From Jannaschia faecimaris (GTDB lineage Bacteria > Pseudomonadota > Alphaproteobacteria > Rhodobacterales > Rhodobacteraceae), in assembly GCF_900107415.1 (NCBI RefSeq), contig NZ_FNPX01000003.1, positions 1 through 64,000 on the forward strand: DNA of 64,000 nucleotides. Direction: 5' to 3'. The translations under genes were made by a program, and so were the position numbers. The first letter of the stretch is position 1, and each line of letters opens with the position of its first letter. Shown here one piece after another: positions 23,092 to 25,890 of this stretch. The notes beneath the pieces were generated by a model, which did not search any database, was not told the origin of the DNA, and saw only the letters and a list, made by a program, of their open reading frames with translations.

Positions 23092-24504
23092 CTAATTTTT
23101 GAGCAGGTGCGGAATGCGGGACAGATCGCCTCGCATATCCCGAGTCGCACTCTCCCGTGCTTCGGGCACCCGCAATCGCATCAGATAGCTTGGATGTAAT
23201 GTGACCAGCAGGGGGCGTCCGTCTTTCGTGCGCTCGATAGTTCCGCGCCGACGCAGCAAGTCCCGCCCGTCACCCGTGAGCGCATGCAGGGCCGTCGCGC
23301 CCAATGCCACGACAAGTTCGGGTTCGACGGTCGACAATTCGCGGTCCAGCCACCAGCGGCAGGCATTCACTTCTCCGGTGCTGGGAGTTTGGTGCAGGCG
23401 GCGCTTGCCCTTCTGGACAAACTTGAAATGCTTCACAGCGTTGGTGACATAGGCATTCTGGCGGTCCAGCCCCGCCTCTTCGGCCAGCTGGTCGAAAAGC
23501 TGCCCGGCGGGACCGGTGAAGGGTCGCCCCTCGATATCCTCCCGGTCGCCGGGCTGTTCGCCCACGATCATCAGGCGCGCATCGGCGGGACCCTCGCCGG
23601 GCACAGCCTGCGTCGCCGGGCCGTACAGGGGACAGCGGGTGCAAGCGTCAATCTCACCGTGCAGGGCGGGCAGGCTGACAGGCCGGTGGATCATCGGCGC
23701 AGGCACCGTCTGATCGACCCGCCGACCCGGACGCGGCGCGCTGGCACCGGCGTTGTGCATCGCCTGTGTTCGGGCGCGCGCGCTCGCGATCAACTCGGGG
23801 ATGACCTGCGCCTCGGGCAGGTTTTTCCAGTATTTCTTAGGCATCTCCGCGCGCATTGCGCCGGGCTTCAACCGCGCCGGATTGAAGATGTTACTATAGT
23901 ATGTCGTCCAGAGCTGTTCCAGCGGGTCGTCCGTGTGGGGGCGTCGACTGTCGATCGCGTGCAGTGTCAGGTTCGCATCGTGGAAGCGGATCGTCACCTC
24001 GGGCGTGACAATCGTCCAGTCCATGTCACCGAAACGGTTGACGAAGAAATCGGCCACGGGCTCCTCGATCCGGTGGGTGGGCTCGAACCAGGCGGCGAAC
24101 CTGCGTTTTCCTTCACCGGAAACTTCGCGGAACCGGACGAAAGCATGCATTTTATGCAGATCGCGGTGGATCGACTTGGCGATGTCGCGGGCTTGCGCCA
24201 CGTCGCGGTCCGCCCGGTTCGACAGCAGTTTCGGCTCTTCCTGCAACCGCATGAGCAGGACGTAGGCCAGAGTCATGCCTTTCCCCGTCCGTTCGGGGAT
24301 CAGGCTACGGGTGAGGTCGGTGAAGCTGGTCGGCACCCTTAGGTCGCCTCGTTCTACTGGCAGCGGAGCGTTGAACATCGAGGCGTCGTCGCCCTCCAGT
24401 CCCCATTCGACCTGAGCGGCGGGGACGCCGGCGCGCGCCAGACGCCGCGCCATCCCGCGCCAAGCGGCATGCGTCCCGATGCGTGGCAGCCGGGGGGCGT
24501 ACAC
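23092..24504 (-). CDS. UdgX family uracil-DNA binding protein fused to DUF4130-type domain
   Basis: A 470-residue fusion. Residues about 1-240 match the DUF4130 'DNA metabolism' domain; about 275-470 form a family 4/5-like uracil-DNA glycosylase of the UdgX type. Seen: CxxC (288-291) of the Fe-S site, GEQPGD (315-320) as motif A, FTGPAGQ, and the R-loop KRRLH (367-371). In UdgX proteins the histidine of this loop (here His371) attacks the deoxyribose and leaves the protein covalently bound to the abasic site. The gene follows a radical SAM gene by 1 bp and shares its LexA box, so a role in the SOS response to DNA uracil or damage is inferred. Confidence 0.88.
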   Translation of the reverse strand: MYAPRLPRIGTHAAWRGMARRLARAGVPAAQVEWGLEGDDASMFNAPLPVERGDLRVPTSFTDLTRSLIPERTGKGMTLAYVLLMRLQEEPKLLSNRADRDVAQARDIAKSIHRDLHKMHAFVRFREVSGEGKRRFAAWFEPTHRIEEPVADFFVNRFGDMDWTIVTPEVTIRFHDANLTLHAIDSRRPHTDDPLEQLWTTYYSNIFNPARLKPGAMRAEMPKKYWKNLPEAQVIPELIASARARTQAMHNAGASAPRPGRRVDQTVPAPMIHRPVSLPALHGEIDACTRCPLYGPATQAVPGEGPADARLMIVGEQPGDREDIEGRPFTGPAGQLFDQLAEEAGLDRQNAYVTNAVKHFKFVQKGKRRLHQTPSTGEVNACRWWLDRELSTVEPELVVALGATALHALTGDGRDLLRRRGTIERTKDGRPLLVTLHPSYLMRLRVPEARESATRDMRGDLSRIPHLLKN

Positions 24505-24505
24505 C

Positions 24506-25726
24506 TCAGAACAGTTCCATCTGTTTGGGTTTCACAAATCGCGCTCGCAGATCCGACGCGTCCAGCATCTGCCCGGGTGTGTGCCCTCGCGCCACGACGA
24601 AGGACGAGGCTTGCTTCACGCGACCGCCCATCCGGCGAATGTCTTGCAGCGCCAAGGCTCCGTTGCGCCGGGCGGCAATGATACGCTGTACGATCTTGGT
24701 GCCGAAGCCCGGCACACGCAGCAGGGCCTCCTTGTCGGCCCGGTTCACATCCACTGGAAAACGGTCGCGGTTGGCCAGCGCCCAGGCCAGCTTGGGATCG
24801 ACGTCAAGGTCGAGCATCCCCGCCCCATCGCGGGTCACGATTTCGTCCAGCCCGAAGTCGTAAAACCGCAGAAGCCAGTCCGCCTGGTACAGTCGGTGCT
24901 CGCGCATCAGTGGCGGATCGACCAACGGCAGCACGGCGCTGGCATCCGGGATCGGCGAGAAGGCCGAATAATAGACCCGCTTCAGGCCATATGCTCCGTA
25001 AAGCCGGCTGGCATTGCCTAGGATCGTCGCATCGTTCGCCGCGTCCGCCCCGACGATCATCTGGGTCGACTGTCCGGCGGGCGCAAACTTGCCGCGCCGC
25101 CGGCCGGTATGGGTTCGGTCGGCATAATCCTCCTTGGTCAAACGGACCTTGCCCATGGCCTGACGAATGCCCGCGGGGTTCTTTTCAGGGGCGAAGGCGC
25201 GCACGCTCGCATCTGTTGGAAGCTCCACGTTGATCGACAGACGATCGGCGGCCAAGCCGGCGCGCTCGATCAACTCGGGTGAGGCGTCGGGAATCGTCTT
25301 GAGATGGATGTACCCGCGAAACCCGTCAGACCGCAGCCTTTCAGCAATGCGCACCATCTCCTCCATCGTGTAGTCCGAAGACTTCAGAATGCCCGACGAC
25401 AGGAACAGCCCCTCGATGTAATTGCGGCGGTAGAATTCGGTCGTCAGCCAGACTACTTCGCCCACCGTGAAGCGCGCGCGCGGGACGTTCGATGAGACGC
25501 GGTTGACGCAATACGCGCAGTCGTAGACGCAATAGTTCGTCATCAGGATCTTGAGCAGACTGATGCAGCGGCCATCGGGTGCATAGGCGTGACAAATGCC
25601 CGATCCAGTGGTCGAGCCGAGGCCCTTGCCATCCCGCGACCCGCGCTTGGTCGTTCCCGAACTTGCGCAACTGGCGTCGTATTTCGCAGCATCGGACAGC
25701 AGCGCCAGCTTATCCTGAATCGTCAT
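24506..25726 (-). CDS. Putative DNA modification/repair radical SAM protein
   Basis: A protein of about 406 residues with a radical SAM Fe-S motif CVYDCAYC (CX3CX2C, about residues 66-73) and, near the C-terminus, a helix-hairpin-helix-like DNA-contact segment LLRVPGFGTKIVQRIIAARR. It matches the uncharacterised radical SAM family that is nearly always paired with a DUF4130/UdgX gene, as here. The reaction is unknown. ATGs at 25735 and 25726 are both possible; I chose 25726. Starting at 25771 would place the LexA box inside the gene, so that start is unlikely. Confidence 0.87.
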   Translation of the reverse strand: MTIQDKLALLSDAAKYDASCASSGTTKRGSRDGKGLGSTTGSGICHAYAPDGRCISLLKILMTNYCVYDCAYCVNRVSSNVPRARFTVGEVVWLTTEFYRRNYIEGLFLSSGILKSSDYTMEEMVRIAERLRSDGFRGYIHLKTIPDASPELIERAGLAADRLSINVELPTDASVRAFAPEKNPAGIRQAMGKVRLTKEDYADRTHTGRRRGKFAPAGQSTQMIVGADAANDATILGNASRLYGAYGLKRVYYSAFSPIPDASAVLPLVDPPLMREHRLYQADWLLRFYDFGLDEIVTRDGAGMLDLDVDPKLAWALANRDRFPVDVNRADKEALLRVPGFGTKIVQRIIAARRNGALALQDIRRMGGRVKQASSFVVARGHTPGQMLDASDLRARFVKPKQMELF

Positions 25727-25738
25727 TTTAACCATGAT

Positions 25739-25753
25739 GTTCACACTATGTTC
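25739..25753 (-). promoter_or_regulatory. LexA (SOS) box upstream of the radical SAM-UdgX operon
   Basis: The sequence reads GTTC-ACACTAT-GTTC on the plus strand, an exact match to the GTTC-N7-GTTC LexA site known for alphaproteobacteria such as Rhodobacter. On the minus strand it overlaps a possible -10 (TAGTGT) placed 17 bases after TTGCTT, a good position for repression. It sits 12 bp upstream of the chosen ATG. Confidence 0.8.
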
Positions 25754-25890
25754 CACTTTAACCCCAAGCAACCCGGAAAGATCGCCGGAACATTTTGCCG
25801 CACCCCGGTGTTAACCTGAGGAATGAACTTCGTGGCACGTCGCGATATGAGGCAACGCTGCCAGCCACTGGGAGGAAAGGAGATTCCGAA

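Follow-up and report, generated by a model that had tools for sequence, protein, structure and literature searches.

Predicted LexA control of a radical SAM–DUF4130 gene pair with an optional UdgX module in Jannaschia faecimaris and other Pseudomonadota

The window analyzed here, a 64,000-nucleotide stretch of the Jannaschia faecimaris genome (contig NZ_FNPX01000003.1, positions 1 to 64,000), contains on its minus strand a two-gene unit encoding a radical S-adenosylmethionine (SAM) protein and a fusion of a DUF4130 domain with a UdgX-type uracil-DNA glycosylase (UDG) domain. The safest statement about this pair is that it is a predicted LexA-controlled unit, with a core of radical SAM protein and DUF4130 and with UdgX as an optional covalent trap. 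The reading favored here goes further, and takes the pair to be an SOS-induced operon for DNA lesion processing with this same core and optional module, to which we give a probability of about 0.5.

Gene pair and predicted LexA-controlled promoter

The genes and promoter elements are as follows, with the basis of each assignment in brackets.

25766-25771, minus strand: -35-like hexamer TTGCTT (sequence; TTG at the matching offset in relatives)
25743-25748, minus strand: -10-like hexamer TAGTGT, within the LexA box and 17 bp from the -35 (sequence; N7 pattern in relatives)
25739-25753, minus strand: predicted LexA box GAACATAGTGTGAAC, GTTC-N7-GTTC on the plus strand (motif scan; conservation in same-class loci)
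24506-25735, minus strand: radical SAM protein, 409 aa, TIGR03916 rSAM_link_UDG (profile score; AlphaFold2 model)
23092-24504, minus strand: DUF4130-UdgX fusion protein of 470 aa, starting with GTG 1 bp past the radical SAM stop (open reading frame; domain searches)

The first-pass annotation of this DNA had described two genes 1 bp apart, a UdgX R-loop (KRRLH) fused to a DUF4130-type domain in the second, and a GTTC-N7-GTTC site overlapping a -10-like element just upstream. The open reading frame (ORF) scan, with genes at 24506-25735(-) and 23092-24504(-), bears out the gap, the NCBIfam and Pfam profiles together with the motif positions confirm the fusion, and the box at 25739-25753 encloses the whole hexamer.

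GTTC-N7-GTTC is the alphaproteobacterial LexA box (PMC8565304). Motif counting was rejected as standalone evidence, with one site in the window compared to 2.2 expected and 103 sites in the genome compared to 127 for a reversed-pattern control, which is at or below chance in both. Though the motif alone stands at chance level, the box is credible because it is conserved upstream of the relatives' loci. In a same-family sample of 100 genomes, 20 of which contain TIGR03916, GTTC/GAAC-N7-GTTC/GAAC occurs among the 150 bases preceding the match at 19 of the 20 loci, compared to 0.08 expected from base shuffling, and the twentieth (L047) has a version of the box with one mismatch. Together with a 398-genome phylum sample this gave 101 loci, 72 from the same class and 29 from other classes of the phylum ('same class' being Alphaproteobacteria and 'same family' lying near Rhodobacterales, as judged from named relatives). 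In the survey of boxes upstream of homologous pairs that the first-pass annotation had suggested, 71 of 72 same-class loci had the alpha-type box in the 150 nt preceding the chosen start, compared to 5 of 1879 background windows from the same loci, and none of the 29 other-class loci had it. Of these 29, 19 instead have CTGT-N8-ACAG (background 4/824), the E. coli-type LexA box, and 24 have the relaxed form CTG-N10-CAG. The putative box type thus switches between classes, with the alpha box in Alphaproteobacteria and CTGT-N8-ACAG elsewhere in the phylum. Among 80 named loci, which are the best 80 of 587 confirmed stretches and are biased to close relatives, 75 have the alpha box and one more (Pseudacidovorax) has CTG-N10-CAG. 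In the window's own genome, a box lies in the ~50 bp before the single lexA match, and two lie in the ~140 bp before recA. Box conservation and the boxes at lexA and recA make LexA/SOS control of the gene pair, proposed in the first-pass annotation, well supported in silico.

The promoter layout recurs in many relatives. In the window, the box and the radical SAM ATG (25735) are separated by 3 bp, and the box start is 18 nt from the ATG. Among 121 distinct boxes in the GAAC orientation, the commonest position of a TTG is 18 nt before the box, occupied in 43, with any other offset accounting for 8 or fewer, and the N7 resembles a -10 hexamer (TATCAT/TATAAT-like). The box starts 17 nt ahead of the chosen start codon in 59 of the 121, the start for each locus being the in-frame start nearest to the aligned start, with ATG favored. 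Family f8 has a different layout, most of its boxes lying 96-99 nt upstream. The transcript is predicted to begin at or next to the ATG, giving a leaderless mRNA, and, as the box encloses the -10 element, LexA would cover the -10.

Loci L086, L087, L091 and L236 (Xanthomonas dyei) have neither LexA-type box, and contain an inverted repeat upstream instead (GTCTCATccaATGAGAC in L086 and AGTCTCATAGGCTGAGACT in L236), located ~30 nt before the radical SAM ATG in L086, L087 and L091. This repeat may be the site of another regulator or a terminator-like element.

Distribution of the radical SAM–DUF4130 core and the UdgX module

In the 398-genome sample, TIGR03916 scores above its cut-off in 84 genomes (99 at E ≤ 0.001). 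TIGR03915, the model covering the DUF4130 domain, was found in 84 of these 84, and TIGR03916 was found in 84 of the 87 genomes with TIGR03915. The UdgX domain is less constant. With presence defined as a UDG match above 60 bits, and with L068, L083, L084 and L089 set to 'present' and L110 to 'degenerate' by hand, the domain is present in 80 of the 101 loci, absent from 20 and degenerate in one (L110). Fusion to DUF4130 was counted for 77 domains, one of these degenerate. L110 and L129-L132 were left out of the protein references, and ORF scans of the whole locus supplied their partner genes. With L110 counted as absent, the radical SAM tree, a quick tree with SH-aLRT as its only branch support, requires at least 8 changes of UdgX state, 3 of them forced by starred branches.

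A TIGR03914 search of the 20 UdgX-less genomes found no R-loop UdgX elsewhere in the genome, giving no match in 9 and R-loop-less matches in 11, three of them family-4-like with GEAPG. The UdgX-less loci retain the alpha box or CTG-N10-CAG in 18 of 20 cases, 13 in strict form. Among the named loci, 72 of 80 have a UDG domain and 8 have none at locus level, some of these 8 lying near contig ends. Radical SAM and DUF4130 genes with no adjacent UDG were also found on a Bacteroides plasmid and in an Acinetobacter record. This distribution suggests that the radical SAM protein and DUF4130 form a conserved core, to which UdgX is attached as a module that has been repeatedly lost or gained.

Several loci depart from the usual arrangement. 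The three genomes with DUF4130 and no radical SAM family match (L249, L250 and L251, in G295, G312 and G382) include two with DUF4130 fused to UdgX, and in each of the three a LexA-type box lies close to the 5' end of that DUF4130 frame. In L110 (G481), the UDG domain fused to DUF4130 retains neither motif A (AGQPG) nor the R-loop histidine; on the tree this locus is sister to the motif-keeping L121 and close to a clade without UDG, and it may represent UdgX decay in progress. ORFs are inserted between the radical SAM and DUF4130 genes in L082, L085, L252 and L253 (assigned by eye), with L252 and L253 sharing one and the others differing; the L085 insert, which precedes DUF4130-UdgX, is nucleoside/base deaminase-like, with an HPE...PMCA pattern (by eye).

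The radical SAM gene also occurs in 158 plasmid records (e.g. NZ_CP081062.1, locus L247), 58 of them from Phaeobacter, and on one Leisingera plasmid the pair lies close to repAB. Matches were found in 10 phage records, comprising 8 'Bacteriophage sp.' records from human fecal samples without annotation and 2 from Acinetobacter. One of the latter, CAKLQH020000003.1 (L246), labelled Acinetobacter phage, has a chromosomal look, with the pair lying among genes such as glyS, glyQ and aidB. Assignment as a phage gene was dismissed.

Domain features of the two proteins

The domains and motifs, all on the minus strand, are as follows.

25565-25669, minus strand: N-terminal segment of the radical SAM protein, in which three more cysteines, C23, C48 (then H49) and C57, are invariant (alignment A4)
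25508-25531, minus strand: radical SAM cluster motif CX3CX2C, formed by C69/C73/C76 (without exception across alignments A1, 19 rows, A2, 67, and A4, 62)
24656-24754, minus strand: helix-hairpin-helix, residues 328-360 (Pfam HHH_3, 28.3 bits, threshold 27)
23809-24477, minus strand: DUF4130/TIGR03915 domain (NCBIfam and Pfam profiles)
23116-23805, minus strand: UdgX-type UDG domain, TIGR03914 (profile; structure comparison)
23548-23562, minus strand: motif A GEQPG, residues 315-319, with E316 and Q317 (motif scan; 6ail alignment)
23392-23406, minus strand: R-loop KRRLH, residues 367-371, with R369 and H371 (motif scan; 6ail alignment)
23176-23196, minus strand: motif B HPSYLMR (motif scan)

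The radical SAM protein scores 560.3 bits on TIGR03916 (curated cut-off 343.5) and contains the CX3CX2C motif. Its AlphaFold2 model (pLDDT 86.2) gives partial barrel matches to HydE, BioB, ThiH, HydG and LIAS (TM score by query 0.39-0.44), with HydE, BioB, ThiH and HydG the best-scoring solved barrels among the matches listed and LIAS ranking under these. No spore photoproduct lyase is among the best 50 of the 74 structural matches at E ≤ 0.001. The helix-hairpin-helix segment matches the ComEA-related structure 2duy (E=0.0008) and, more weakly, RuvA (E ≥ 0.02), and likely binds DNA. C23, C48 and C57 are invariant in 62 of 62 rows of alignment A4, and likewise in Bacteroidota and Clostridia rows, suggesting a possible second metal site or radical relay; in the model, residues 21-34 and 41-51 have pLDDT below 50. 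A radical SAM relative from Gemmatirosa (L244, 37% identity) lacks these three cysteines, and its locus yielded no DUF4130 match; it probably represents a separate subfamily.

The DUF4130 part of the fusion protein scores 173 bits on TIGR03915 (cut-off 112.25) and adjoins the TIGR03916 gene, and both DUF4130 and UDG are above the Pfam gathering score. The AlphaFold2 model of the domain is confident (pLDDT 89.8). Its best match in a viral structure library is an uncharacterized protein (E 0.0032), and its comparison with 8a8k gives a probability of 0.93, yet a TM score of 0.33 and E of 0.11. Assignment as a DHH phosphoesterase was rejected, the fold matches being weak (best E 0.017, TM 0.20). 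Residues invariant across 85 alignment rows include H117, R124, R157, W199, R211, W226 and E231.

The UDG part scores 307.3 bits on TIGR03914 (cut-off 189.95) and matches the solved Mycobacterium smegmatis UdgX structure 6ail with E=1.1e-48. Motif A GEQPG, VTNAVKHFKF (N355), the R-loop K-R-R-x-H and HPS are shared with that enzyme and all in register, so that the protein has the motif A and the equivalents of R-loop R107 and H109 by which the UdgX class is defined, and H371, corresponding to H109 of MsmUdgX, is the predicted covalent nucleophile. The solved UdgX chains have 205-229 residues and lack DUF4130, whereas the window UdgX is fused to DUF4130 and adjoins a radical SAM gene. The R107/H109 signature marks covalent capture rather than turnover, the enzyme becoming bonded to the abasic site after uracil excision (PMC10359453). 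In related loci, the R-loop arginine and histidine are kept in 77 of 78 UDG domains and GEQPG in 75 of 78; the module, where present, keeps its predicted trap residues, and the UdgX-type covalent chemistry put forward in the first-pass annotation is supported by these signatures. Against PHROGs, the fusion protein gave two weak matches, via the UDG part, and the radical SAM protein gave none. The same genome contains a second UDG (L156, G000:C47:76263-76865) with GEAPG and no R-loop, which is probably an ordinary family-4-type UDG.

Candidate roles and relation to known systems

In the favored reading, LexA would be bound over the box that contains the promoter -10, and DNA damage would relieve repression. 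The radical SAM enzyme would dock onto DNA via its helix-hairpin-helix domain and, together with DUF4130, would use a 5'-deoxyadenosyl radical on a damaged nucleotide, for direct repair or tailoring of a lesion arising at blocked replication. The fused UdgX would remove uracil and cap the resulting abasic site covalently through H371, which may shield the site, tether the core there, or both. Ordinary uracil excision would probably be left to other enzymes, such as the genome's family-4-like UDG without the R-loop. Direct action of the radical SAM enzyme on a DNA lesion is the likeliest of the radical chemistries considered, at about even odds, ahead of DUF4130 maturation and then of action on the UdgX crosslink.

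Several observations weigh against this reading. The DNA role of the radical SAM enzyme is read from its helix-hairpin-helix and its context, and DUF4130, whose model has no match at E ≤ 0.001 among solved or viral structures, could equally be a protein substrate, as it has no confident structural relative. On Pfam Radical_SAM (PF04055), the radical SAM chain scores 27.5 bits (E=4e-6), below the gathering score of 29.5; the assignment holds despite this because both the family-specific NCBIfam model and the barrel in the predicted structure support it. The locus counts, including the 71/72 for the box, share ancestry, 4 of the 80 named loci have neither LexA-type box, and CTG-N10-CAG is absent from 5 of the 29 other-class loci and present in 51 of 824 background windows.

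One alternative is that the radical SAM protein is a maturase, which would install a modification or radical on DUF4130, with DUF4130 then acting on DNA. This proposal would account for the 84/84 pairing, the invariant DUF4130 residues in 85 rows and the confident model of the domain, but the radical SAM protein has a helix-hairpin-helix, which speaks for DNA instead, and 3 of the 87 DUF4130 genomes have no radical SAM match. We consider the proposal unlikely. Less probable again is a role in which the enzyme would target UdgX itself or its covalent crosslink to DNA, for example by reversing or remodeling that crosslink. The UdgX domain is found in 80 of 101 loci, as a rule fused to DUF4130, and for resolution of its crosslink the literature offers proposals, namely RecA-dependent pathways or proteases (PMC10359453). 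However, the core of radical SAM protein and DUF4130 persists without UdgX in 20 of the 101 loci, of which 18 retain a LexA-type box, and the search of those genomes revealed no R-loop UdgX; UdgX or its crosslink is therefore not supported as the general target. The first-pass annotation had envisaged an SOS-induced unit in which the radical SAM enzyme modifies DNA, the crosslink or UdgX; its SOS control stands at the level of sequence, action on DNA is possible given the helix-hairpin-helix, and the crosslink or UdgX as a general target is set aside.

The wording of the SOS literature, a putative UDG base-excision repair system (PMC8565304), would fit an SOS-regulated ordinary base-excision unit composed of a turnover uracil-DNA glycosylase and a helper, but the R107/H109 signature present in 77 of 78 loci marks covalent capture (PMC10359453) and UDG is absent from 20 of 101 loci, making this reading improbable, slightly more so than action on the crosslink. 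The plasmid-borne copies (158 records) are in line with a defense or DNA-modification system against foreign DNA, e.g. uracil-containing phage DNA, yet PADLOC gave 0 families for either protein at E ≤ 0.01, and an SOS-type promoter fits repair better; we regard this as very improbable.

By score, the window pair is a member of the NCBIfam trio TIGR03916/TIGR03915/TIGR03914 (rSAM_link_UDG, SAM_7_link_chp and UdgX-family UDG), corresponding to the COG4277-COG1573 operon, in which COG4277 is presumably the TIGR03916 protein. Membership is identical to that of the trio, and the present analysis adds the -10 within the LexA box, the predicted leaderless start, the dispensability of UdgX and the near-obligate pairing of the radical SAM protein with DUF4130. 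For Bacteroidetes, a 2021 paper (PMC8565304) predicted that the COG1573-COG4277 operon is under SOS regulation, and it cites earlier SOS reports for Verrucomicrobia and Alphaproteobacteria. DUF4130 has been linked with SplB-like radical SAM proteins and UDGs (PMC3765255), with a legend there suggesting possible thymine modification; no spore photoproduct lyase appeared among the best 50 of 74 model matches here. One LexA-bound radical SAM gene has been reported in Streptomyces venezuelae (PMC9380542), which may or may not belong to this family. The gene pair and its SOS control are thus already known in outline, and what is added here is the promoter anatomy and a corrected view of the essential parts. 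The open-licence literature yielded no paper joining UdgX with LexA or with a radical SAM protein, and none on TIGR03916; the first-pass annotation had regarded the radical SAM reaction as undescribed, and no description turned up in that literature. In the UdgX paper (PMC10359453), a text search for 'SOS' gave no match.

Spore photoproduct lyase (SplB) is a precedent for DNA repair by a radical SAM enzyme (PMC8307549). By comparison, the best listed barrels for the window protein are HydE, BioB, ThiH and HydG, then LIAS, and it has extra invariant cysteines and a helix-hairpin-helix domain, features read on the window side alone. HMCES/YedK (SRAP) proteins are covalent abasic-site shields in the damage response. 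UdgX resembles them in abasic-site capping, but the domains are unrelated and UdgX makes the abasic site itself.

Genome-wide uracil methods make use of UdgX, while its exact role in physiology has been called largely unknown (PMC10359453). If the present reading is true, it would join UdgX biochemistry and SOS work, two literatures of which the SOS side speaks of a uracil-glycosylase base-excision system (PMC8565304). If the unit is LexA-controlled across Alphaproteobacteria and other Pseudomonadota, with DUF4130 obligate and UdgX optional, experimenters would know which pair of proteins to co-purify and in what condition cells produce them, and the hunt for the radical chemistry would no longer center on the UdgX crosslink. 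Tentatively, and at slightly under even odds, many Pseudomonadota would use the pair in their SOS response as an uncharacterized radical machine for DNA repair, which works directly on a lesion that known enzyme classes do not handle in this way, with UdgX as a plug-in that covalently caps uracil-derived abasic sites during SOS.

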